From the NCBI GenBank assembly GCA_947179485.1, contig OX359250.1:42416600-42480599 (forward strand): a stretch of DNA of 64,000 nt, given 5' to 3'. The position numbers and the translations under genes are program-made. Positions 17,249 through 54,454 of the stretch are shown here, piece by piece. This DNA comes from Allacma fusca. Its lineage: Eukaryota; Arthropoda; Collembola; Symphypleona; Sminthuridae. A model generated the notes under the pieces. That model was given only the letters and a program-made list of their open reading frames with translations. It was not told the DNA's origin and ran no database searches. Position 1 is the stretch's first letter; every line of letters begins with the position of its first letter.

Positions 17249-19463
17249 ATGGGTTTGCTTGCAAACACCGAATTGAAATGGAAGGATCTGTTCCCAACGT
17301 CATGGAGTTTCCTCGTGTTTATTTTGTACATGGCTTTATTTATTAATCAAGGTTTGGCTTTTATTGTTTGATCAGTTTTGTTAGATGTATTATATTATTT
17401 TAAGTTTAACTTTTTGGAATTGAACGTAAATGATGCTTTTTGAGTTTGGATTCTAATAATAATTATTATTGCTGATTTTTGTTTTAGGAATTCTAGTCAC
17501 TGCATCACAGAATGGTCAAAAGGGATACAGCTACAATACTGTTACAGCGGTCTTACTTACCGAGATCATCAAATTAATTGTCTCCAGCGGACTTTTTGTT
17601 CATCGGTATAGTTTTTAGCAGATTTTTATTTCAAATTGAGTTTATTATTGAACGCTTGTTGATGTTGTTACTTCCTTCTTTTTCTTCCTGATATTTTTGA
17701 GTTAGTTGATGGCTTATGCGAACAATTTATTTGATTAGATCGCTGATTCTGTAAAGGTAGTACCGATACCGGTGCAGCTTTGATCTGTAGTAGAGTTAAT
17801 AGTAATTTGTTTCATTGCTTACTTTGTTTTTTCATTTGGTAGGTCACTAGTAAATTATTTAATTTAAATTGGAGTAGATTCTGCTATCGATAGTTTGGAG
17901 TAAAAGTATTTATAAAATATTGTAACAAATTCTAATGGTGCTTTTTGACGGCGGGTTTCAATTCGTGGGGTATATTGAAGATTTTCCTGTGAATATTGGG
18001 CTATAGACATGTGAATATACGTATTGGTAAGAAGAGGTGGAGACTGACATACATCTTGTGTATCTTGGTTAGGAAATCCCTGAGTGTGTTTGTCAACGAA
18101 GTCAGCAAAAATTCCAAAGGTGAGATAGCTCGATGGTTTCTCTTTCCATGGCATCTGTAAAATCTCAAGATTTTGTCATCCTCAAGCATTTTATCAGCTT
18201 ACGTTCCTCTAACTGTAACCTCCGAGGATGTTATTTACGTAATTGTTTAGTGAGCAAGGAATTGATTTGACCTTTTACTACTTGTGACACGAATTAGCTC
18301 TTCGTGAAAGCATTATTATGAACTAGTAGTTCTATCATCCTCCTCTATTTGCTCCTCATTTAATACGCATTAGTAATGCGATAATCTTCGGATAATTTGA
18401 TAATCTATTTAATCAATGCTTTTGCTTTCTCAATCAATTCGCAGTTTTTCTCTTATACTTCATTCCGGCCTTTTTGTATTGCTTGTACAACAACCTGGCA
18501 TATACTAATCTGGCTACTTTTGACCCTACAACATACTTTCTGTTGCTACAATTCCGAGTAGTGGTAACAGGAGTTGTTTTCCAGGTGAGTAGTGAAATAA
18601 TCATACTAAATTGCGCTCAATAGTTTTAAGACAAAATGAGTCAATTAATCGCGATTGGCAACCATGTTAGGTATTGTTAATATTAATTTTTTTTCGAATC
18701 CAGATACTTTTCAAGAAAAATCTTAGCACCCATCAGTGGATCTCATTGCTATTTTTGACAGTTGGATGCATGGTAAAGGAAATAAATTTTGATGCTATTT
18801 TCGGCAGCAAAACACTTGGTGTTTCTCCGACAGTCGAGTCTTCAAGCAAATCCAGTGCCTTAGAATTTGTTGGGCTGCTTTTAATTTTCTTGCAGGTAAG
18901 TTTATGTTGTTGTGAGTACTTGGTTATTCAAAACACTCTTAAACATCCGTTTATACATTTGTTGATGTTTTCAGGTAGTTTGTTCTTCAAGTGCTGGAGT
19001 TTACAATGAATATCTGTTGAAAGGTACCGGTGTCCCTGTCCTCGTTCAAAATACTTGTCTGTACCTTGACTCAATAATATGCAACATTGTGTTGTTGTTT
19101 ATCCAAGGAAATTTGAGTTCTGGTCTTAATATGGAATCTGTTCAAACAATTTTGGGCACCCCTATTAATCTTGCTGTAATTTTAAACAATGCTGCAATAG
19201 GAATTGTAACTAGTTTCTTTTTAGCTCAATTGAATTCAATATTGAAAACTTTTGCCAGTGCTTTGGAACTAATGTTCACAGCGGTCCTTTGCTGGATGAT
19301 TTTTGGTATTCCCATTTATTTGAATACTTTACTTGCTATATGCATAGTCACTCTGGCTATTTATTTGTATTCCTTACAACCTGTTGTCAACCGAGGAAAG
19401 ATCGAAGAATCTCCTCTAAAATCATCAGCAGCAGATTTTAAAAAGTTACCGGAAGATGTATAA
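17249..19463 (+). CDS. senju: UDP-galactose/nucleotide-sugar transporter, senju-like (SLC35A family)
   Basis: Six exons: 17249-17351, 17488-17605, 18073-18119, 18445-18584, 18704-18895 and 18975-19463. Phases agree and give about 362 residues, normal for SLC35 transporters. The protein is a string of about ten hydrophobic helices. Diagnostic stretches are SQNGQKGYSYNTVTAVLLTE, YCLYNNLAYTNLATFDPTTY and GVYNEYLLKGTGVPVLVQN, which follow the nucleotide-sugar transporter layout; the first recalls Drosophila senju. Such proteins exchange UDP-galactose or related UDP-sugars for UMP across Golgi membranes. The third exon is only 47 nt and was found from the phase mismatch between its neighbours; without it the frame breaks. 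The C-terminal tail is short and polar. Substrate specificity is inferred. Confidence 0.88.
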
Positions 19464-28000: not shown

Positions 28001-31000
28001 CATGTTCATACCGACTTCATTTTGCCCACAGGCTGGAGCACCTGTAATAATGCAAGCAAAGTCCTCGAAATGTAATGCTGAATTTTGGGATTAGCAAAAC
28101 AATTTGAAATCACAGTTTTTCAATACATATAAAAGTGAACTATTTACAGTGGCTACGAACTGCAAAAGCCTTACCAGTTATACAAATTCGAGGTGGTGGA
28201 ATACATTTAGCTGCAGTAGGGGGAAGGAACTTCTTCGGATTTTCGATAAATCTCAAGGAAGCTTCTTTGCTCACGAAGTAGTATAATCTATCTTGAAACT
28301 TGACGGCGTATTTGGAATTTCCTTTCCGAATCATCTTCAAGTCGTAGACAGTGACCGGGCAGAAGTATTTAAAATCACCGAATAATCGATAGCTCTCAAT
28401 TTCATCTAAAGTTCGGCGAAAGAGGTCCGGATTATTTTCCATCCCACGGAGTTTACTTCCATAACGTTCCTCCACCTCTGCCTCCTCATCACTTAGATCC
28501 TCCGCCTCTCCAGGGATTTCCTCATCTTCACCAACATTCCTGGAATCACCAGCCTGTCCTGTCCATAATAATTTAGACTCCTCCACATCCTGGTCATCCT
28601 CTTCGAGCTCCCCTGCAGTGACTGGTTTAGGTGGTAGATAAAACCGAGCTTCTAGAGCACCCCAGAACCTTTTAGCTACCGATTCACTACGATCTTCATC
28701 TACTGTCCCAACTTCCCAAGAATTAACTTTCTGTTCATTCAAAACTGGATAAACCATGTTCCAAAAATCGTTGAAGGTAGTTATCTGCTTCAGGAAGGCT
28801 TTTCTCAGTGATAAAGGGCTTTCCTTTTCGAGACAGTCAACTTCACCGTAACATTCTAAACGTGTTATAAAGTTGCTGGGGGTATTCAAACCACTAGGAG
28901 TTGGAATATAGTCTTCTTCACCCTCTAGCTCTGTTTCTTTCTCAGTTTCAGTTTCAGTTTCAAGCGCTGCCTTGGAGAGCTGCGACATTCTTGAGGGTTT
29001 GATTGTTGGTTTCTTATACTGTGCTATAACTTGAGTCATCCTGTCTTCTCCATCGTCCTCGCTGAAGTATCCACGATCTTTAGTAGTAAGGCCCAAAGCT
29101 AGGTTTAACGGAAGGATAACGATCATTTCCGACGGAACTACTTTTTTCATAGGGAGACTCAGACCAAGTTCCTTTTCACTTGCAACTGTATGCCACAATT
29201 TCACACACGCCGGATTCATAAATATCAGGGATGGGGAGACCGAAAATTGGAATGAAGATGGAAATGTCGACGTAACTTCTTTCAATGAAAGTTCCTTGTC
29301 GCTGGGAGGCTCTTCTTCTGTTATAATGTCCGTTTCCGAATTTGCAAACGATTGCTGTCGCCCACGATCCCTATCCACTTGTTTCATTTCCGACTCCGTG
29401 CTGCATAATTTTCCTTGAAGATGATCCGTAGGCAGATTAGACTCTTCCAACTTGCTCTCGTCAGTTTCTTCTGGTTTTAGATCATCCTCAAGATATTTTG
29501 CCAGCATTTCCTGACCATCAAGTTCACCTTCTCTTTCCCCCTCCGCCACCAAATCCCCCAGCCGCTTTCGACGTAGACCTATTTTTAATCAAAGAATCAT
29601 AAATTACTCTACAATAAGAAATTATTTTGCGATTTTACAAAACCACTAAACTCGCCTCACAGCTACACAATAAGATCGGAATAATCGGCGATTAAGTAAA
29701 TCCATAGAATCGTGTAACATTAAATATTAATTTACTTATTTTCCTTCCCGGGTTGGAATTTATGTACAGTTTCTTTAGTCGTCTAGTAATGTTAGAGTAA
29801 TCTCCACTTGCATCTTGTAGAACAAAAATCTGATCAGGGCACAGAGCTGGGTTTCGTAAGATACTTCGCCATTTCTCCACATCTAGAATCAGGTTCTCGA
29901 CAATCCACCCGCCCGAACTAGACCATTGAGAAATATTAAAGCATTTAGAGAATATACTTTTCACTGAAAACATATTAAAATTTTCGGTTTTCGGACACTC
30001 AGTTGAACCTTACAACTTACAAATGAGCATATGGAAACCGTTCCTGGTATGTTTCTTCTGCATCACGAAGTGCCATCTGTAATATTTCTTCATATATTTC
30101 ACTTGGAAGAGTTTCCACCCATTTTAATGTTTCCTTAAGCTTGTCTCGGACATAGGCTTGGACCTGCTCATTTTGATCCTCAACCTCCCCTGGCCTTGGG
30201 ACAGGTTCTGTCAGCTCAGGACACATTTCGGGGTAACGCATTCGAAGAGACTCTGTTATTATTGTGGACAATGAAAAGCGAGATGAAATGAATAAGCTTA
30301 CACTTGTAAATGCTTATAATTGCACGTTATCTTGCGTTGATTACCATCCGGTTCAGCATCACTTGGCAAAGGTGAAGACTCGATTTCATCGTCAGTGATA
30401 ACTGCCACTTCCGAAACCTTCGGACCCTTCTTCTTACAGTATGGCCTTTTCCTCCTCCGCCGCTTCTTTTTCGTTACTTCCTCTTCCTCGCCAACGGATT
30501 CTCCTCCATGTTCACTCTCCTGCTCACCACTTTCCTCATCATCCCCACTTCCTTTCCCTTCACCTTCATCCTCTCCTCCTTCGCCTTCGTCCTCATCTCC
30601 TGCACCTTTGGGTTTCTTTCGGTAACATATCCGTACAAGCTTTTTATTCGATTTATATCGCAGTTTCCCTTCTTTGAACAGCTCCCATGCGAGCTCCAAC
30701 CTTTCTTGATGCGTCCAGGCAGCTATCCCTTTTTTCTAAATAAGATTTTATTATAATTAATTATAATTTAATGAATATTATATGTGTCATTTTTTTGAAG
30801 ATTCTAAGTCTGAGAAACGGGTTTGCAATACTCTTTCTCATATTCAGTAAGGAAGTCATGCAGATCTTACAAGGCAAACTTACAATATCTTCCACGAATT
30901 TTTTCCATGAAAAGGCTAAATAATCTGGGTTGCATGGACTGGCTTTGAATGGAGCACTCAGTTCGTGATACTCACTAGCATAGCGCCATTTTCGATACGT

Positions 31001-35849: not shown

Positions 35850-36682
35850 TTAGATTTAAGGTTAGAATCAAGTTTCGAATCAAGTTTACACTCAAGTTTA
35901 GGCTCAAGTTTAGAATCAAGGTTAGATTCAAGTTTAGACTCAAGTTTAGATCTAATTTTAGACTCAAGTTTAGACTCAAGATTAGACTCAAGTTTAGACT
36001 CAAGTTTAGACTCAAGTTTAGACTCAAGTTTAGATTAAAGTTTAGATCCAAGTTTAGACTCAAGGTTAGATTCAAGTTTAGACTCAAGTTTAGATCTAAT
36101 TTTAGACTCAAGTTAAGATCTAATTTTAGACTCAAGTTTAGACTCAAGTTTAGAATCAAGGTTGGATTCAAGTTTAGACAAGCTTAGACTCAAGCTTAGA
36201 CTCAAGTTTAGACTCAAGTTTAGACTCAAGTTTAGACTCAAGTTTAGACCCAAGTTTAGACTCAAGTTTAGACTCAAGTTTAGACTCAAGTTTAGACTCA
36301 AGTTTAGACTCAAGTTTAGATTAAAGTTTAGAATCAAGGTTAGACTCAAGTTTAGACTCAAGTTTAGATTAAAGTTTAGAATCAAGGTTAGATTCAAGTT
36401 TAGACTCAAGGTTAGATTCAAGTTTAGACTCAAGTTTAGATCTAATTTTAGACTCAAGTTTAGACTCAAGTTTAGACTCAAGTTTAGAATCAAGGTTAGA
36501 TTCAAGTTTAGACTCAAGCTTAGATCTAAGTTTAGACTCAAGTTTAGACTCAAGCTTAGATCTAAGTTTAGACTCAAGTTTAGACTCAAGTTTAGATCTA
36601 AGTTTAGACTCAAGTTTAGATCTAATTTTAGATCCAAGTTTAGACTCAAGTTTAGACTCAAGTTCAGACTCAAGTTTAGTTT
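35850..36682. repeat. 12-bp minisatellite, about 830 bp
   Basis: A tandem array of TTTAGACTCAAG with common variants (TTAGATTCAAG, TTAGATCTAA, TTAGAATCAAGG), arranged in higher-order blocks that repeat the same variant order. Because 12 is a multiple of three and the unit lacks in-frame stops, it opens long spurious frames on both strands. Confidence 0.95.
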
Positions 36683-38839: not shown

Positions 38840-39245
38840 CCTCAACGATTTGAAAAATCCCTGCTGGAAAAAAGGTCAACGATTTGAAAAATCCCTGCTG
38901 GAAAAAAGGTCAACGATTTGAAAAATCCCTGCTGGAAAAAAGGTCAACGATTTGAAAAATTCCTGCTGGAAAAAAGGTCAACGATTTGAAAAATCCCTGC
39001 TGGAAAAAAGGTCAACGATTTGAAAAATCCCTGCTGGAAAAAAGGTCAACGATTTGAAAAATCCCTGCTGGAAAAAAGGTCAACGATTTGAAAAATCCCT
39101 GCTGGAAAAAAGGTCAACGATTTGAAAAATTCCTGCTGGAAAAAAGGTCAACGATTTGAAAAATCCCTGCTGGAAAAAAGGTCAACGATTTGAAAAATCC
39201 CTGCTGGAAAAAAGGTCAACGATTTGAAAAATCCCTGTTGGCAAA
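38840..39245. repeat. 34-bp minisatellite, about 11-12 copies
   Basis: The near-perfect tandem unit is built from GGTCAACGATTTGAAAAATC followed by CCTGCTGGAAAAAA. Copies differ mostly by one C/T change (TCCTGCTGG). Diverged, shorter relatives (TCCCTG words) extend to about 38780 and 39440. Confidence 0.95.
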
Positions 39246-42279: not shown

Positions 42280-44711
42280 TTCGGCTTCAAATTCTCATAT
42301 GGAAAACTGTCAATGTACACATATAAAATCTAAAGTTCCTAACCGATTTCGATGAAAATAGTCTCATTGAGTTAAGAATGAAGAGTTGTGGTGGTACATC
42401 TCGAAAAACCGCCAAATATCCCGCCAAAAAAATTCTCATTTACTTAGCCACAACTGAGGGAATTTCAATGTATCCTAATAACTTCTAAACTTCTCACCCG
42501 ATTTCAATAAAAATTGACTCAATGAGTTCGGAATAGAGAATGTGGTGGTACATCTCGAAAAACCGCCAAATATCCCGCCCGGAAAAATTCCAATACCCAA
42601 GGCCTAAATGAGAGAATTTCAATGTATTCAAATAGCTTCTAAACTTCCCACCCGATTTCAATAAAATTTGTCTCATTGAGTTCAGAATGAAGAATGTGGT
42701 CGTACATCTCGAAAAACCGCCAAATATCACGCCCGGTAAAAAACCTCATTTACCAACCTGCAACTGAGAGAATTTCAATCTATTCTAATAACTTCTAAAC
42801 TTCCAACCCGATTTCAATGAAAATTGTCTCATTGAGTTCAGAATGAAGAGTGGTGGTGGTAAACCTGGAAAAACCGCCATATATCGCGCCCGGAATAAAC
42901 CTCATTTACCCAGCCACAACTGACAATGAGAGAATTTCAATGTTTTCTAATACCTTGTAAACTTCTCAAACGATTTCAATGAAAATTGTCTCATTGAGTT
43001 CAGAATGAAGAATGTGGTGGTACATCTCGAAAAACCGCCAAATATCCAGCACAAAAAAATTCTCATTTTCCCAGCCACAACTTAGAAAATTTGTTTGTAT
43101 CCTCGAAACTTCTAAACTTCTCACCCGATTTAATGAAAATTGTCTCATTGAGTTCGGAATGAAGAGCGGTGGTGGTAAACCTGGAAAAACCGCCATATAT
43201 CGCGCCCGGAATAAACCTCATTTACCCAGCCAAAACTGAGAGAATTTCAATGTTTTCTAATAACTTCTAAACTTCTCACCCGATTTCAATGAAAATTGTC
43301 TCATTGAGTTCCGAAAAATATCGCCCTTCTTTGTATGATAATAGGTTATTTCATCGAAAAGAAGAGCCTTGATACCAAGGGTCAAGTACTCTCACTGCGT
43401 GCCTATTGGTATATATGTATCTGTCCTAGTATGCATTGCTCTCCTACCCATATTTGCTTTGTATCTTCTGGCAGCGCTTTGCCAGCCTACATAAGATATA
43501 TAATTGTGAGTTGTAGATAGTGCAAGCCATATGCAATGATCACATGCAATTTGAAACCAAAGTATGGGTTTGATTAATTCTGTAGTAAACTACATTATCC
43601 AGTGGGAATAAATAATAAGGGACCATTATGCATGCACTGTGGTATACATGTTCATACACTCTGGTAATTACTGGTATCAAGTAATTCCCGCCTCATTCTC
43701 AGACCGTCTCTGCAAACGTTTTCCCAAAGATCCTGATTGTAATCCTGTCCTAAGCAATTTGTGCTTTGAGAATGTTCCGCTCGCCATAAATGCCTAGCCT
43801 TTACTTGAACGAACTTGTAGCCTGCCTGAATAGCCCAGTCCCTTGTTCGTAAATATCTGAATAGTCTAGATTCTCCCTAAGCCTATATTGTAGTGGTGAT
43901 TGCCCAGCCTAGAACCTCGCCTAGATTTATATCCCAACTTGCAGCATCCTTGAGCCTTAACCTATTATAGGGCCTAGAATCTAGAATGGCGCCCATGTTT
44001 GGCGTGCACACATGCAGTGACTGCTTTCATCGCAGAAGTGAATGTTGCCGAAGGAGTGCATACACGTTGGTTGACAAGTGATTGGGATGTGTATTATTAC
44101 TTTATTGAAGTGTCAAGACTGACTGTGGCAACTCGTGCTACTACTTGTATATATTGTATCGAGAGCAACTCATTTGCACACGTTATTGTATCGATGTTTT
44201 GTGCATTTGGTGGTGCTTATTCGGGGCATTATGAGAGCAGATGGTTGGTTACATGAAGTGCCATAAGGGGTATGGTAGTGGAAAATAATTTTGGTAACTA
44301 AAAAACACATTTTATACAATTTTGAAGATGTACAATTCAAAAATTTACAACTTTTGTTTACGTTGGAAAATACATACGGCGAATAAATGCACTGTACGGG
44401 TAACTGCCAATTAATATAAATTTTCGCGGGCGGGATATTTGGCGGTTTTTCGAGATGTACCACCACAACTCTTCATTGTTAACTCAATGAGACCATTTTC
44501 ATCGAAATCGGGTGAGAAGTTGAGAAGTTATTAGAATACATTGAAATTCTCTCAGTTGTGGCTGGGTAAATGAGAATTTTTCTGGGCGGTATATTTGGCG
44601 GGTTTTCAAGATGAACCACCACAACTCTTCATTCTGAACTCAATGAGACTATTTTTATCGAAATCGGTTGGGAACCTTAGATAGTATTAGTTTGCATGCA
44701 TTGAAGCCGAA
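42280..44711. mobile_element. Foldback-type element with inverted tandem-repeat arms
   Basis: The left end begins TTCGGCTTCAA and the right end finishes TTGAAGCCGAA, its exact complement. The left arm (about 42300-43320) carries roughly seven tandem copies of a unit of about 157 bp. The right arm (about 44410-44700) carries two copies in the opposite orientation. Each unit contains ACCCGATTTCAATGAAAATT and CATCTCGAAAAACCGCCAAA. Between the arms lies about 1.1 kb of unrelated sequence without a gene. Long inverted arms made of tandem units are typical of foldback transposons; no flanking duplication was identified. Confidence 0.6.
42300..43320 (+). repeat. About 157-bp tandem repeat, about 7 copies
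   Basis: The word CCCGATTTCAA (or a close variant) recurs near 42343, 42496, 42649, 42806, 42967, 43122 and 43279, a spacing of 153-161 bp. Each copy also has TCTCATTGAGTTCAGAATGA and the CCGCCAAATATC motif. Confidence 0.9.
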
Positions 44712-44879: not shown

Positions 44880-45580
44880 CTAATTCATATTTTTAAAAAA
44901 TAGTTTATTATGATTATTTTAAATAATCGAAAAATCAATAATTTCAATTTTTCAATTTTTATTGATTGTAGTATGCATTATATTGAATGTTACTACTAGT
45001 ATATCATTTGCCTGACGAAGAGTAAAAGCTCGAAACGTTGCTGCGAATAAAATATAAGCCTTGTGTTAAAAAGTGAACTTCTACCCTTATTTAATATATT
45101 ATCGCAAATTACAACTATTCAATGGATTAAATTCTATTCGTCTTTTCAATTCAATCATAACAAAATATTTTTGCAGAAGAGAAAAATGAGGAAAGCACAC
45201 TTTTGATGGGTTTTTGACAGAGTCAAAAAAGTAGGTTTGACAAAGTTTTGTATGAACGCGTCGTTTACAGGGTCATGGGATCATTCGAGCTGACCATAGC
45301 TATTTGAACGGCTGGTGTTGAGACCAGGGGCTTTTTTGCGTTTCTTTCAACGCATTGCTCCTCCAACTTTAATGTGTTCAATGATAATTTGCTTCCAAAT
45401 GTGATATTGAATTTATGTAAATGTACATGTGCATGGGAAGTTAGCAGGAACGCCTGACGGTGGTACAACTCCATACCTGACCTAGCCCGAGCCCGAGCTG
45501 ACTTATTCATCTGACCTAACGTTGCAGAGTTTTTGAAATAAAAATCAGAATACACATCAGGATGCAAGAATTACGGGGAA
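44880..45580. other. Upstream region of the Reeler/DOMON gene
   Basis: About 700 bp holding the presumed promoter. It contains a hammerhead-like word at 45011-45036 (discussed under findings) and no supported coding exon. Confidence 0.35.
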
Positions 45581-48500
45581 ATGAACATTTTCATGCCTTT
45601 TTTGACATTACTAATCTCCATTCTTGTTCCTTTGCATCGTGTTTGCTCTGAAGACGACGACTACGATCGACCCGTGGAGAAAACACTCGTCAAATATGGC
45701 AAGTTCTGCACTCACTTGGAGGATTTCAATGTTGATGGGGTGCCGGAGAAAACAAATGATGTTTTTGATATCGAACTTTTCGAAATAAACGATTCATCCA
45801 GTAGCAACACAATACATGTTCTTGTAAAAACTTCCAAAACCAGATACGACTACCTTGTCTTAATGGCCATTAATGAGAAGGGAATACCTACCGGGCACTT
45901 CCATCATTATCCTTGCGTTGATGCGAAGAGCCATCCAACGACCGGGGTGAATAAAGTGAGCATTTTTTGCACACAAAAAGGGAGCAGATTGGAGAAAAAA
46001 TATGGGGTGAGTAAATCTGGACCCTTGGAGTCTTTTTTCTAGAGTTTGTCTAAAGAATAGAAAAACTTTAGCCTTTACTATTGTTGATTTTAGGTCACCC
46101 AAATGATGTTCACCGTAATCAGAAACGAGCCTGATGGCTCCGGTATCATCGAAAAATCTCTGGGGCATGTGAGCAACTTCTGGACGTGGACGAAGAGGGA
46201 TGGACCACCCCCGAAGAAACTCCAGTTCCTATATGCTGCAGTCAGGGCAACTGAGGATCAAGAGGATACTTTTTGGATTGACAAATCACCTGTGATAGAC
46301 TTTCAAGAGACATATACTCCTCACAATTTTAAAGTTAACGACGAGAATGACGAGGTCCGAAGTATGTACTGCTACCGCAATAAAATTACTACGTCCTCCA
46401 AAAGGAATTTCAAAATATCGAGTGAACAAAAGGAAATTCAAGTGAATGATGAGTACATACGAGATTTATTTCCAGATATAGAGTGTTAGCTCCTCTCGTT
46501 TCCTAATCAGATATGATTTTGTAGCAGAATATAAACCGAAATTGTACCTTTACTGCCATCGACTTGCTAGCTTAATGTTTGTAATTCATTTCTTTAGTCC
46601 CTGTTCTAACAACCACAACATTGAGAACTACTCCTACAACTACCACAACTACGCGACCTACTACAACCACAAAAACAACAACGGTAGAGGACCCTGATGA
46701 GCCACCTGTTGTTAAAACCATGGTGCTGTATGGCAGGTTCTGTGCACACATAGAGGACTTCGATGTGGATGGGACACCGGAGAAACAAAACAATCTCTTT
46801 GGCACCAAAGTCTATGAAATACGAGGTCCATCTAGTGCCAATACCCTCCATGTTGTTGTGACGACAACCAAAACTCGTTACGACTACTTGGACATGATGG
46901 CCATTGATGAGATGGGGTTGCCGTCAGGACGTTTTCACCACTACCCCTGTGCTGACGCAAAGAACCATCCAACTACCGGAACCAATAAAAACCGAATACG
47001 TTGCACGGAAATAGGAGGCAAGTTTGGCAAAAAATATGGCGTGAGCATATATACACCTAAACTACTGAAAACATATATTATATGATTAAATTAGGTCTGT
47101 GGTGTGTTTTATTGTAATGCAAAAATAAAAATGATAAACTATCGGAAGCACTTCCTCGCTGTATGATAAAAAAGGGAAAATATTCTCTTGTGATTTCAGA
47201 AAACGGAAATGTCCTTCACAGTCAAGAGGACAGATGAAGCTGGTAAGGAAATAGATCGAACACTCGGAGCTGTGAGTAACTTCTGGACATGGAGTCCAAT
47301 TGATGGACCAGCCCCGAAGAAAATCCAGTTTCGATATGCTGCTGTAAGAGCGAATGAAGGCGAAATGGATACATTTTGGGTTGATATGTTGTCACCTGTG
47401 TTGGAGTTCCAACAAAAGACAGTCCCTAAAAAATTCAAAATTGATGACGAAACTAAGGAAGTTCAGGAAATGCTATGTTTTCGTGACGAAGTAACTACGA
47501 ATTCCCAAGGGAATTTCAAAATTTCGGATAACCAGGAAGAGCTTCCAGTCAATGAAGCCTACATGCAAGAGTTGTTTCCGGATTTGATTTGTAGGTTACG
47601 GATAGAGAACGGAAGTTTTTTGTTAAACCCGTTCAATATAAATATGTATATGCAATATAAATCAATTCAGACTTTTGTAAGGAGCTAATTATGGGTAAAA
47701 TAATTTATTTCAGTCCCTACACGACCCCCAACGACTACTACAACTACCACAACTACCACAACAACCACAACAACAACGACCACAACAACGACTCCTACAA
47801 CTACCACAACAACTACAACAACACCTACAACCACTAAAACGACTACAGTGGAGGAAGAAGAGGGTCCACCTATAGTAAAGACCATGGTGCTGTATGGGAG
47901 GTTCTGTGCACATCTGGAGGACTTCGATGTGGATGGGACACCGGAGAAACAAAACGATCTCTTTGGCATCAAAGTCTATGAAATACGAGGTCCATCTAGT
48001 ACGAATACGCTCCACGTTGTTGTGACGACGTCCAAAACTCGTTACGACTTCTTGGACATGATGGCCATTGATGAGATGGGGTTGCCGTCAGGACGTTTTC
48101 ACCACTACCCCTGTGCTGACGCAAAGAACCATCCTACTACCGGTTCGAATAAAAACCGCATATTTTGCACTCGGAAAGGAGACAAGTTTGGGAAAAAATA
48201 TGGCGTAAGCATAACGTGAACTACTACAAATATATACATAACTAATCGTGTACTGTAAATATAAATGATCGTTTGTGAATTTGGAAACACCTGGCCGATT
48301 TTGGCGTCTCGCCCACCCAAATTACATTGTGATGTTGGATGAGATATTGAACATTTTCTTCTCAGGGCAACTAGATGGCAATTGGGCGTTTGTGCACAAC
48401 TGATTATAATAGATCAATATATTTGTTCAATCGATTCAGTAACGTCTTGCAAAAAGTTGTATTAAATTCCCGGATGCCTTGCCATCCGTTTCGTTGCAAA

Positions 48501-51500
48501 GCATCCATCATGATGGTTAAAATTATAGCAATTTTGGTATTAATAATTTGCTGTTATTTATTTCATCATTTAAACCATCGGTGATCAGCAATGTGATACT
48601 AGTTGAATCTCGGGGGTTATGCAATATTGTATAGTGCACAAGCAATGCTTAAATTAATACCTGCTTAGAAATATATGCGTCCACTATGTAATCTAACTTT
48701 TCTAAGGTAAAACAAACTTGAACCATCAGACTGCCCAATTTGCTGGGCTCATAATGTTGGAAATAGGACCAATTTTTAAAATCTGCCTTACTGGTTGCTT
48801 AACATTTTTGGATACATTTTGAACATTTTCGTTCGGGATGGCAAATACTTTAGGACATTATAAAGGGTTCAAAAGGCCGTAGATGTAGTGTAAACCAAAC
48901 AAGTTGTAATTTTGAGTGAAAACAGAAATGTGTCATGTAGGAAATATGAAGAATAGAATTCTCTTGTGATTTCAGAAAACGGAAATGTCCTTCACAGTCA
49001 AGAGGACAGATGAAGCTGGTAAGGAAATAGATCGAACACTCGGAGCTGTGAGTAACTTCTGGACATGGAGTCCAATTGATGGACCAGCCCCGAAGAAAAT
49101 CCAGTTTCGATATGCTGCTGTAAGAGCGAATGAAGGCGAAATGGATACATTTTGGGTTGATATGTTGTCACCTGTGTTGGAGTTCCAACAAAAGACAGTC
49201 CCTAAAAAATTCAAAATTGATGATGAAGCTAAGGAAGTTCAGGAAATGCTGTGTTTTCGTGACGAAGTAACTACGAATTCCCAAGGGAATTTCAAAATTT
49301 CAGATAACCAGGAAGAGCTTCCAGTCAATGAAGCCTACATGCAAGAGTTGTTTCCGGATTTGATTTGTAGGTTACGGATAGAGAACGGAAGTTTTTTGTT
49401 AAACCCGTTCAATATAAATATGTATATGCAATATAAATCAATTCAGACTTTTGTAAGGAGCTAATTATGGGTAAAATAATTTATTTCAGTCCCTACACGA
49501 CCCCCAACAACTACTACAACTACCACAACAACGACTCCTGAAACTACCACCACAACAACGACTCCTGAAACTACCACCACAACAACGACTCCTGAAACTA
49601 CCACTACAACAACGACTCCTGAAACTACCACCACAACAACGACTCCTGAAACTACCACTACAACAACGACTCCTGAAACTACCACCACAACAACGACTCC
49701 TGAAACTACCACTACAACAACGACTCCTGAAACTACCACCACAACAACGACTCCTGAAACTACCACTACAACAACGACTCCTGAAACTACCACCACAACA
49801 ACGACTCCTGAAACTACCACCACAACAACGACTCCTGAAACTACCACTACAACAACGACTCCTGAAACTACCACCACAACAACGACTCCTGAAACTACCA
49901 CTACAACAACGACTCCTGAAACTACCACCACAACAACGACTCCTGAAACTACCACTACAACAACGACTCCTGAAACTACCACCACAACAACGACTCCTGA
50001 AACTACCACTACAACAACGACTCCTGAAACTACCACCACAACAACGACTCCTGAAACTACCACTACAACAACGACTCCTGAAACTACCACTACAACAACG
50101 ACTCCTGAAACTACCACCACAACAACGACTCCTGAAACTACCACTACAACAACGACTCCTGAAACTACCACCACAACAACGACTCCTGAAACTACCACCA
50201 CAACGACTCCAACAACTACCACAAGTACTACAGCTGTGGAGAGCACTACAACTACAGCACCACAGCTTGCTCCATCAACAACAGCGAGTGTCACAGTAAC
50301 AATAACGAGTGCTCCCGCAACAACATCCAGTGCCCCAGAAACAACAACGAGTGCTCCAGCTACTGTAGCTGCTCCAAGCGCTGCTCCTGAAAGCATAGTT
50401 GATACGAGCACCTTTCCGATAATACCATCCCCAGTTACAACAACAACCCAAGCTACAGTTCCTGTAATGACATCTCCATTAAAAGTAGTTCCTTTAACGT
50501 TAGCTGAATCAATCCTAGCTACTTCAACCACTGCTGCCGCCTATTTAAACGCAATCCTGTTAACCACCATTCCTCAGACGAAAGGTACTAACTTTACAGC
50601 ACTTACTACTCTAACAGATCTTATAACTACTTCATTAACGGCAACTCATACTTACAGTTGTTGAAAATAATAATTTTTATTTCACAGCTCCTTCAGTAGC
50701 AACCTCATCATCTATAGAAGCACTCTTAGCAACAAGTCTGGAGTCCACCACAGAAACTAAGCTGAATTTAGCATCGGTTGTAACGACACAGACGTCACCA
50801 AAACATACACCCCTCACTCTCTTCCGTGTAACTGGTAAAAAGGAATTGCCTTCAAAAGCAGCAGTAACGTCACCAGCTACACCAACCACTGCAAAAAGAG
50901 ACACCATTGAAAAGATTCCTCAACGATCGAAGGAATCAGAAGAATCATCTAAAAAGGGAGCTAAATTCTCTGATAAATTAAAGGAAAATAATCTGTCAGA
51001 AAACATGTACACGAAACGCCCAAGGAGGTTAGATGACAAACCAACGCTTGAGGGTGTTTACAGCGGCTGCTACGAAGGAAAGGCATGCATAGAAGATGTC
51101 CCGGGCTGTGCAAAGTCTCAGGGTTGCGAGCTTCTCGTCACCTACACCGGTACCAGTGACGCTGGACCAGGTTATTACAGATTTGAACTTCTGGCAGACT
51201 TATCACAAGGACACGGTTACGTGGCAGTGGGGCTATCGTCTGACCGGATAATGGTTGGTTAACAAAATATTTTGAGTGCATGCGTCGGTGAAAAGGCAAA
51301 ATGGACTGCATGCATTTTTATTAGAAGCAAAATTAACTTAAAAAGGCAAGTCTCCCTACATGAAAAGTTAATCACATGTAACTAAGTACTAAACGAGCTA
51401 ATTGTAAATGATACGTGTACTGTACTAAAAGGCAAGGATCAAGGTGTGCATTTTTATTCAGGATAAATCACACAAGAAATTGCTCGTGGTCCATTTTGCT

Positions 51501-53687
51501 TGTAGGATGAACTCGACGTGGTCCATTTTGTTTTTAATATTTAATCCACCTGGTACATTTTTTTAATGAAGTGTAACTACTTCAAGATCAATATGTTTCA
51601 AGCTGCAATTACATATGCTCGATTTTTACTAAAAAATGTAGCTTAAGTTAAGCATACATAAGTAGCATTCCAAGACAGATGCTAAGGAATAGCAAGATGC
51701 ATAGGGCACAGTGGAACTCTTTATAATCATCCAGTTATGGACAATCAGTAGTTGTAAGTAGCTGTGTGATAAATTATATGGTATTAATTTTTAAACCATA
51801 TTTAAATATACAGGGAGATGACAGTGTGGTAGAATGCGTGGGGGAGGAGAATGGCCAAGTTGGAATTTTCTTGTCCTGGAATACAAAATCGTATGGGAAT
51901 AAAAGAATGGTATTGACATGCATGATGTACACTTTTATATTTTTAGGCCTGGAAACCTAATACAAATTTTGTAATAATTAATTAAAACCTAGCTTGGTAC
52001 GCCTTGTAAACTCAAATCCCGTGGACCACTGCGAGGATGCAATGTTACACTTCAAGATGGGAAAATTATCTGCAACTTTTACAGAAGAGTAGTGACAAAA
52101 ATTTACTCAAATGTATTTGATCTAAACCATAATAGCTTCTTCATTTTACGGGCCTTCGGAAGGCAGACTGAACCTGCCAATGTTTATGGAGATAAACAAA
52201 CAGGTGCTTAATATTAATCATGAAAGGGTATTACGAAACGTTGTCAGTTCGTAATACTATATTTTAGAAATTAACAGCTGCAATTGGGGTATTTATTGCA
52301 GAACAAAAGCGTGGCAAACGTTCGGCTCCCCCTGGGAAAAAGTTCGGAAATCTGAAAAAGCACGATAAAAAATATTCGACGGTGATTGCTAAATCACTTC
52401 GTCAAAGTGTTGATGAGGTACGTAAAAAAGAAAACTGTTTAAAATGTTTTAAATGTAACGCCTGCAAACCATATACAGTTCCAATGTAGCCACAAAAGTT
52501 GTGTGAACATTATGTTCCAGACCGAGTTCGGCACATTGAAGTTAATTTATTTGAGAATTCACGGGGTGTTCATGATAATTGGTTGGATAGCTATTTTGCC
52601 TAATGTAACATTCGTGGCCCGATACTTTAAAGAAACTTGGACTGATGTTGAATTGTTCGATAGACCGCACTGGTTAATGGTAAATTGTAATTTACTGGTT
52701 TAAAACTTGCTATCTTGACAAGAGTTTTACGTTATTTTTTTATCCCCTTTGTGCAGATTCATGTAATAGGGACGTGCACAGCAGGGATTTTTATATTTTT
52801 AGGTTTTCTATCTATTCTCGTACACTCCTTCATTATTAAAAATCGGGTGGAATTTCTTCTCGAGGAGGGGTTACACATAATTTTAGGTTCAATAGCGTTA
52901 TTTCTGTTCATTGTTCAAATACTTCTGGGTTATTTCCGTCCGACTGGACAAAAAGCGAGGATGATCGTAAATATTATTCATTTTATAAATGGGACCGTTA
53001 GCTATCTTTTAGCAGGTAAAGAAACCGATTTCTTTAACTTTATCTTATTTCATATCTTTAAATACTTCCAACGTTCCAACATGTAATTACTACATTTTAG
53101 AAAATTAACATTTGTCTCCACACAGTTGTGATAATTTTCCTGGCGCCAGTAATGGAAACTTCATTCTTTAGCTGTTCGAGTTATTTACTTATTATTACTT
53201 GGCTCGTCTGGTCTTTAATATGGCACGTTGTAATTAATGTAAGGAAGTTAAATCAAGAAAACTGTTGTCGCTGAAAAAGGTAATCGAGGATTGAATCGTA
53301 ATTTATATAACCGTACATACTTATTGTAGGTGGAAATTATGAGACAAGATCACGCACTAAACTTAAAGTTCAGAGCTTTTATGCCACTACCGATTCCGGT
53401 AAGAAGTACTCGTGATGTGCCGGTAAGTGCGGTCTACGGATCTCAATGTTTCTCAAATAATACACGCACAGGTTTGCTTGTTTGGAAATTATCCAACAGT
53501 GAATCTGGAACTACATGATTGACTATTAGTAATTTACAAAAATTATTGCATCTAGGGCCAGAAATGCAGATTAGACATATTTGCTTTTCACGCAGCTGGA
53601 GCATGTATAGTGAGTTTGCTTCTTATTCTTCCGTACTTGATTTCTCAAGTTGGATGTGAATGCAAACAAACAATTTGCTTACTGTAG
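45581..53687 (+). CDS. FRRS1: Triple Reeler-like / mucin / DOMON / cytochrome b561 membrane protein (ferric-chelate reductase 1 class)
   Basis: Sixteen exons: 45581-46006, 46094-46484, 46598-47040, 47200-47590, 47714-48204, 48976-49366, 49490-50656, 50688-51253, 51814-51909, 51993-52203, 52302-52417, 52521-52679, 52757-53015, 53126-53238, 53330-53398 and 53556-53687. The total, 5421 nt, gives 1806 residues. A signal peptide (FMPFLTLLISILVPL) is followed by three two-exon Reeler-like units (to about 844), each with FHHYPC and NFWTW blocks. Thr-rich linkers separate them. A long Thr/Pro mucin stretch (about 844-1350), a DOMON domain (about 1350-1524) and cytochrome b561 helices follow. Candidate haem histidines are 1577, 1618, 1656 and 1691. 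The class moves electrons across membranes, often to ferric iron. The Reeler call is by pattern only; the DOMON-b561 call is firmer. Weak donors: 46485 and 50657. Confidence 0.82.
47184..47713 (+). repeat. Near-identical duplicated block, copy 1 (partner 48960-49489)
   Basis: The acceptor region, the 391-nt exon and the following 123-nt intron are repeated 1776 bp downstream with only a few substitutions. The exon pair differs by one residue (Thr to Ala in DDETKEV against DDEAKEV). The intron between them looks the same base for base. The exons preceding each copy (46598-47040 and 47714-48204) are clearly more diverged. Confidence 0.9.
48205..48975 (+). other. Long intron of the third Reeler-like unit
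   Basis: This intron is 771 bp, against 159 bp and 87 bp at the equivalent positions of the other two units, so about 600 bp of sequence is extra. The extra sequence contains no exon that fits the flanking phase 0. It may be an old insertion. Confidence 0.5.
49534..50208 (+). repeat. 27-bp coding minisatellite (9-residue Thr/Pro/Glu repeat), 25 copies
   Basis: ACTCCTGAA recurs 25 times at an exact 27-bp period from 49534 to 50182, each followed by ACTACCACCACAACAACG or its ACC-to-ACT synonym. In frame it encodes seven Thr, Pro, Glu, giving a mucin-type O-glycosylation stretch inside exon 7 of the Reeler/DOMON gene. The two synonymous forms largely alternate, suggesting a 54-bp higher-order unit. 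Confidence 0.97.
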
Positions 53688-54098
53688 AAGAAATAAATTG
53701 AAGAGGAAATGTGCTATTATTGTACATGCAATATTTTATCGGCTGCTCCATATTTTTTCAAAGAATCACTTATCATTTCTTTACATAACGAATAACGATG
53801 CACACGATGTTGTTGATTTAAATAATAAGTCATACCTATTTTGCGCAAAATACTTAATAAAGACTCACTTTCCCCGGATAATAAAGCTCTAACGGGGACC
53901 CGTAAAATGGCTGGCAACATTACCAAATCACTCTACAACATGGAAATACTACAATATTTTAGCTATTCTATTGATGCATACAGAATCTGATTTTTTCAGA
54001 CTCTAGGAAGTGCTACTATTAGGTAAACTCAGACACACTATCGTCAGGATGAGGAAATGGAATTTCACACGCTTCATATTGATTGATTTTCCTGACAA
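53688..54098. other. Convergent intergenic region
   Basis: Four hundred bases between the Reeler/DOMON gene and STMP1. AATAAA occurs at 53692-53697 and 53856-53861 on the plus strand; the second is at a more usual distance from the stop codon. Confidence 0.5.
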
Positions 54099-54454
54099 CT
54101 ATTTTTCCTTCTTTTGATCCTCTAAATAATCTTGCAACCTTTTAAGCATTGTCTTGGGGTCCTCTACTTTAGGTACCTGTCAATACAAAACGAACGACTG
54201 TTACTTATTTTTCCAACTCCCAATTTCCCAAACACTTTCAACAAAAATAAAAAAAATAACATTTCCACGTCTCTTACGTTTGTATAATTCTGAGAAACAT
54301 ACAGTCCCGTGTATATTCCAGCAGCAAAGGAAACCTAAAGAATAGAACCACACTTTATGAATCACATTTTGGTCCTGATATGTCACCCATACACTATTAG
54401 TTCTTGAGGAATCAAACATATTAGTAAAATTACCAAGTTTGAGAATAAACCCAT
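54099..54454 (-). CDS. STMP1: Short transmembrane mitochondrial protein 1-like microprotein (DUF4535)
   Basis: Three tiny exons (54454-54434, 54334-54278 and 54176-54099) encode 51 residues. The core GIYTGLYVSQNY matches the family pattern GxxxGxYxxQNY of vertebrate STMP1 (47 residues). It follows a hydrophobic N-terminal segment (MGLFSNLVSFAAG) and precedes a charged helix ending DYLEDQKKEK. All three exons are in phase 0, with good donors (GTAATT, GTAAGA) and acceptors. STMP1 is an inner-mitochondrial-membrane microprotein linked to respiratory complexes and mitochondrial dynamics. The 5' UTR appears to continue to an acceptor at about 54520 and so is spliced upstream. Longer open frames over this locus are artefacts of reading through introns. 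Confidence 0.8.

Follow-up and report, generated by a model that had tools for sequence, protein, structure and literature searches.

A predicted CYBDOM gene of the collembolan Allacma fusca with three repeated N-terminal units and a Thr/Pro-rich stalk ahead of DOMON and cytochrome b561

The closest described relatives of the gene considered here are CYBDOM proteins, which join a DOMON domain to a cytochrome b561 domain, such as human FRRS1 (592 residues), SDR2 and Drosophila CG8399. As set out in passages of PMC10691727, the heme-methionine motif SxDxxMGxD is highly conserved in animal CYBDOMs; an N-terminal Reeler domain is present in the nine multidomain insect CG8399 proteins of that paper and is not found in all CYBDOMs; the role of this extracellular module in the CYBDOM reductases is stated as unknown; and two DOMON domains occur in 19 of 888 insect CYBDOM hits. 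For the plant DOMON-b561 protein HYP1, ascorbate-driven electron transport was shown in oocytes, according to the portion of PMC10784544 used here. We analysed a 64,000-nucleotide stretch of A. fusca contig OX359250.1 (positions 42,416,600 to 42,480,599; hereafter the window), which carries at 45581-53687 on the + strand a predicted gene of this class, and compared it with these systems.

The gene model comprises 16 exons that join into a single open frame of 1790 residues, whose sole stop is the last codon. All introns have GT donors (15/15) and AG acceptors (15/15), and the phase agrees at every junction. From the N-terminus, the predicted protein consists of a hydrophobic leader, three units of two exons each that are separated by Thr-rich linkers, a Thr/Pro stalk, a DOMON domain and a cytochrome b561 domain. 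We consider that the gene probably encodes an FRRS1/SDR2/CG8399-class CYBDOM protein with a greatly enlarged ectodomain. It shares with CG8399/SDR2 and FRRS1 the leader, the N-terminal extracellular modules, a DOMON with SxDxxMGxD, the four heme histidines of the b561 domain and most of the class-specific residues; it differs in having three units where these have a single N-terminal domain, in the lack of a Reeler by Pfam and in its ~480-residue Thr/Pro stalk. It is also much longer, since Drosophila members reach ~650 residues or fewer (the CG8399 b561 segment ends at Gly645 in the part of PMC10691727 consulted). A sequence-only reading had described a continuous phase-matched exon chain with this architecture; chain and architecture both hold, the last two domains being identified by Pfam, while its length of 1806 residues becomes 1790. 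Exon ends were set by eye on the genomic sequence and then checked by script, giving the following features, all on the + strand:

45581-46006, +, exon 1: start codon, hydrophobic leader (MNIFMPFLTLLISILVPLH...) and first half of unit 1 (gene model, hydropathy)
46094-46484, +, exon 2: second half of unit 1 (gene model, alignment)
46598-47040, +, exon 3: Thr-rich linker (19 Thr in residues 273-310) and first half of unit 2
47200-47590, +, exon 4: second half of unit 2
47714-48204, +, exon 5: Thr-rich linker (37 Thr in residues 551-601) and first half of unit 3
48976-49366, +, exon 6: second half of unit 3
49490-50584, +, exon 7: Thr/Pro stalk, 221 Thr in 365 residues, 25 T-run-PE motifs
49522-50204, +, coding minisatellite in exon 7: 27 bp, 25.3 copies, 96% match
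50688-51253, +, exon 8: end of the stalk, furin-like KRPRR (RxKR/RxRR type, residue 1320), start of DOMON up to the heme-Met motif SSDRIMGDD (1393-1401)
51814-51909, +, exon 9: middle of DOMON
51993-52203, +, exon 10: DOMON, end of the Pfam match (residue 1482)
52302-52417, +, exon 11: furin-like RGKR↓S (residue 1504) and candidate DOMON heme-ligand His1521
52521-52679 and 52757-53015, +, exons 12-13: cytochrome b561 core with H1 1553, H2 1594, H3 1632 and H4 1667
53126-53238, 53330-53422 and 53556-53687, +, exons 14-16: last transmembrane stretches, C-terminus and stop

We predict that all 16 exons likely belong to one transcript. That the locus instead comprises two genes, or yields two main transcripts, with a secreted triple-unit mucin encoded upstream and an FRRS1-like gene following downstream, appears quite improbable to us. 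Such a split would be compatible with a join that rests on the genomic exon model only, with the poly(A)-type hexamers inside the locus (17 A[AT]TAAA in 45501-54200) and with the 1-1 phase cassette structure of the unit and stalk exons: units 2 and 3, flanked by phase-1 introns, can be dropped in frame singly or jointly, as can the stalk exon, and the frame was kept in 6 of the 7 skips tested, that of exons 2-7 breaking it. However, exons 6, 7 and 8 are in phase, with the end of exon 7 and the start of exon 8 matched at GT-AG sites, and the downstream DOMON part would be left without a leader: exon 8 has none of its own, and hydrophobic Met starts in 45301-51260 are confined to exon 1, the only plausible leader source, and one short frame in intron 5. 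This latter frame (48513-48584) has a very hydrophobic start (MVKIIAILVLIICCYLF...) and is a possible alternative leader; as a leader for a separate downstream gene it was rejected, as it ends at a stop and its nearest donor, judged by eye, is out of phase with exon 6. At the 3′ end, an internal donor was chosen in exon 14 because reading through soon meets a stop, while splicing adds the last hydrophobic stretch; the spliced version is thus preferred, and a shorter C-terminus from unspliced exon 14, with its own stop, is less favoured. An AATAAA lies at 53692, just past the stop codon; given the 17 hexamers across the locus, it says little about the poly(A) site.

The three N-terminal units each contain four equally spaced cysteines, with 193 residues from the first to the last. 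Aligned with unit 2, unit 3 is 93% and unit 1 is 56% identical, which bears out the earlier description of three related two-exon units with Thr-rich linkers. Comparison of units 1 and 2 gives Ks of ~2.0 and 1.7 for the two exons, near saturation, with Ka of 0.26 and 0.35; for units 1 and 3, Ks exceeds what can be estimated in one exon and is 2.06 in the other, with Ka of 0.22 and 0.36. Ks values of ~1.7-2.0 against Ka values of 0.26-0.35 between units 1 and 2 indicate that all compared unit exons are constrained coding sequence, and the units are under purifying selection, not decay. Units 2 and 3 show a different pattern along their length. Across 130 codons, exons 4 and 6 are separated by four changes, 3 synonymous and 1 non-synonymous, and their downstream introns match at 123 of 123 bases; for exons 3 and 5, Ks is 0.24. 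The near-identical coding-plus-intron block spans about 47182-47813 and 48958-49583 (96.8%). On the simplest reading, an older duplication of the unit was followed by a recent gene conversion or unequal exchange of its second half. The differences between exons 3 and 5 and between the neighbouring introns (159 vs 771 bases) make an assembly error less likely. When five query pieces were used in tblastn against the window, the gene itself was recovered together with three chance-level matches (E 0.60-0.95), and no paralogue or further copy of the units elsewhere in it.

The redox module was recovered by profile search of the joined protein, with both domains, as previously proposed, above their Pfam cut-offs: DOMON (PF03351) at residues 1374-1482 (E=3.6e-10, 40.6 bits, cut-off 32.7) and cytochrome b561 (PF03188) at residues 1552-1685 (E=1.4e-5, 25.8 bits, cut-off 23). 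The motif SxDxxMGxD occurs once, as SSDRIMGDD at 1393. The b561 histidines H1-H4, at 1553, 1594, 1632 and 1667, are spaced by 41/38/35 residues, compared with 41/30/36 in Drosophila as derived from residue numbers given in PMC10691727. Among 11 CG8399 positions named in the section of that paper used, eight are identical (H1+23 K, H2-4 W, H3+4 G, H3+21 R, H3+22 P, H4-7 R, H4-3 N and H4+18 A), one is basic for basic (R at H2-7, K in most) and two differ (L for F at H2-3 and G for P at H3+24). A BLASTP alignment of the redox part with a human FRRS1 sequence not drawn from a database record gave 94.7 bits (E=1e-24 for this single comparison), with identity in 83 of 348 columns (24%). For the second heme ligand of DOMON, the probable candidate is His1521, which aligns with the KH of that human FRRS1 sequence and lies 32 residues before H1, against 30 in Drosophila. 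The furin-like RGKR↓S (52302-52320) sits in an insertion that separates the DOMON Pfam match from this candidate histidine.

Several points weigh against a CYBDOM protein with an enlarged ectodomain. The exon chain is a prediction from genomic sequence. The assignment of His1521 requires the insertion, which places it 123 residues after the Met compared with 93 in Drosophila; an alternative, His1476, lies 78 residues after the Met, and a furin-like site stands between the end of the Pfam DOMON match and His1521. A phmmer search of the DOMON-b561 part against PDB sequences returned 0 matches at E≤1. As for the units, Pfam returned 0 families in any of the three at E≤10; their core of 193 residues between the outer cysteines exceeds the 124-137 residues of insect Reelers, the range given in the part of PMC3616906 consulted; and among 164 candidate stretches in viral contigs and 46 in genome contigs, both collections being non-eukaryotic, none was confirmed as a relative.

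The same Pfam search detected Reeler in all three controls (Spondin-1, FRRS1 and reelin). The sequence-only reading had labelled the units Reeler-like (PF02014) and had named the lack of a match by profile or structure prediction as a reason to give up the label; the profile search indeed gave no match, and neither pairwise alignment nor a home-made profile supports the label. In 18 pairwise unit-by-Reeler alignments, the best z was 2.07 and the lowest shuffle count 13/300, whereas the six control comparisons gave z of 6.4-29.7, all with 0/300 shuffles. With hhalign, the unit matched Reeler at a probability of 0.3% over an out-of-register stretch of 29 columns. A hidden Markov model (HMM) built from three Reelers scored units 1, 2 and 3 at -0.8, 0.8 and 2.8 bits, with 83, 12 and 6 of 300 shuffles scoring at least as high. 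A two-block test gave nine sums ranging from 19/500 at best to 450/500 at worst, and comparison of the FRRS1 F-W-x-P block with exon B of the units gave 61, 7 and 11 of 500 for units 1-3. AlphaFold2, run with three to five alignment rows, returned a mean pLDDT of 32.8 for unit 1 with the 29-codon intron read through and 35.0 for exon B only, values too low to speak for or against a Reeler fold.

Since the units occupy the place of Reeler in FRRS1, strongly diverged Reelers, i.e. a triple-Reeler FRRS1, deserve serious consideration, and we give them a little under an even chance. Their position between leader and DOMON is that of Reeler in CG8399/SDR2 (as described in part of PMC10691727), and the low shuffle counts of units 2 and 3, both with the HMM and with the F-W-x-P block, point the same way. 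The two units are near-copies, however, so that their scores are not independent tests, and unit 1 is beaten in 83 of 300 shuffles; together with HMM scores of just a few bits at most, the failed Pfam and pairwise searches against working controls and the out-of-register hhalign match, this leaves the case for Reeler marginal, carried by position and a loose order of motifs. We place at even chances an unrelated, lineage-restricted domain standing in Reeler's stead. This alternative accords with the units' own four-cysteine pattern and greater length, and with the library searches: besides the empty Pfam result, NCBIfam gave nothing above cut-off (one match, unit 2, 15.8 bits against 39.8), and PDB sequences gave nothing meaningful (one match, RNase III, E=0.37), so that Reeler is unsupported by PDB profile search as well. 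Absence from libraries is nevertheless a weak argument; the collections searched for relatives were non-eukaryotic, and three rows of which two are nearly identical make a poor profile.

The stalk, at residues 845-1325, contains 238 Thr and 51 Pro in 481 residues and is a mucin-type sequence, for which O-glycosylation is predicted from composition; the ~480 residues agree with the ~500 first proposed. The 27-bp array in exon 7 probably varies in length between individuals. The two furin-like sites suggest a further possibility, a real rival that we nevertheless regard as rather unlikely: a single precursor would be cut at KRPRR↓L (after residue 1323), and perhaps at RGKR↓S. The triple-unit mucin would then be shed and secreted, as a gel or in the manner of an opsonin, while a short DOMON-b561 reductase would stay in the membrane. 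KRPRR lies exactly at the border between stalk and DOMON, and residues 1210-1540 hold two R-x-K/R-R sites against a shuffle mean of 0.147, and 1% of 2000 shuffles reach two or more, a post hoc figure as this region was picked after the sites had been seen. Both sites are predicted from sequence, furin-type cleavage does not favour Leu at P1′, as in KRPRR↓L, and a cut at RGKR↓S would detach His1521, the candidate heme ligand, from the remaining DOMON.

For the membrane-anchored CYBDOM protein that we favour, the electron-transfer residues of the class are largely present, which makes the surface reductase suggested earlier a reasonable proposal, while the Reeler label of its units is not supported by the sequence tests. 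The DOMON-b561 part would act as an ascorbate-driven transmembrane reductase, with a predicted heme binding and electron path. The stalk, of O-glycosylation type, would hold the three units well off the membrane, where they may form a multivalent recognition or adhesion head, putatively ligand-binding, in the place of the single Reeler of CG8399 and SDR2. A more far-reaching version, which we offer as speculative and doubtful, is that the units constitute an undescribed four-cysteine extracellular family that took the place of Reeler in a CYBDOM reductase and multiplied through exon shuffling in phase 1-1, with sequence homogenisation still under way, the product being a cleavable mucin with a trivalent recognition head over a trans-membrane ascorbate reductase. 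If true, the binding of a target would be linked to redox chemistry nearby on the cell surface.

Domain duplication is common to this gene and the two-DOMON insect CYBDOMs; in this gene, it is the N-terminal unit and not DOMON that is duplicated, and the section of PMC10691727 on CYBDOM domain duplication makes no mention, in the part consulted, of duplicated N-terminal domains. HYP1 shares DOMON and b561, and its ascorbate-dependent trans-membrane electron transport, with ferric and cupric reduction, was demonstrated (PMC10784544, same portion); it is a plant protein without repeated units or mucin stalk. Noduler and other arthropod Reeler immune proteins, whose extracellular modules bind microbes and hemocytes (part of PMC12113285), offer a possible analogy; these are small, secreted, single-domain proteins with Reeler over nearly their whole length. 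Among the open-access papers looked at, the scope of our search as opposed to subscription papers and protein databases, one had Reeler, DOMON and cytochrome b561 together, and we met no protein with two, three or four Reelers; an annotation of this architecture may already exist elsewhere. The "two Reeler" wording in PMC5090245, taken up as a candidate multi-Reeler protein, refers to two genes. A module of this kind that is tripled, raised on a stalk and kept under purifying selection argues for a binding function of its own, and modules and stalk could be removed one by one, because their exons are in-frame cassettes.

In the rest of the window, Rfam and tRNA scans, run over its whole length, gave no match. 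Other coding signals are an exon with a CH_2 domain (sperm/cilia SPEF1 type) at 275-886 on the - strand (E=2.1e-18), a nucleotide-sugar transporter fragment at 18966-19463 on the + strand (Pfam E=2.5e-13) and a long frame at 28140-29588 on the - strand with a weak FAP206 match (21.9 bits, under the cut-off of 33). Three tandem arrays are also present: a 12-bp array at 35850-36679 (69 copies, with open frames on both strands), a 34-bp array at 38842-39245 (11.9 copies, 98%) and an array of about 154 bp at 42329-43315 (6.3 copies).

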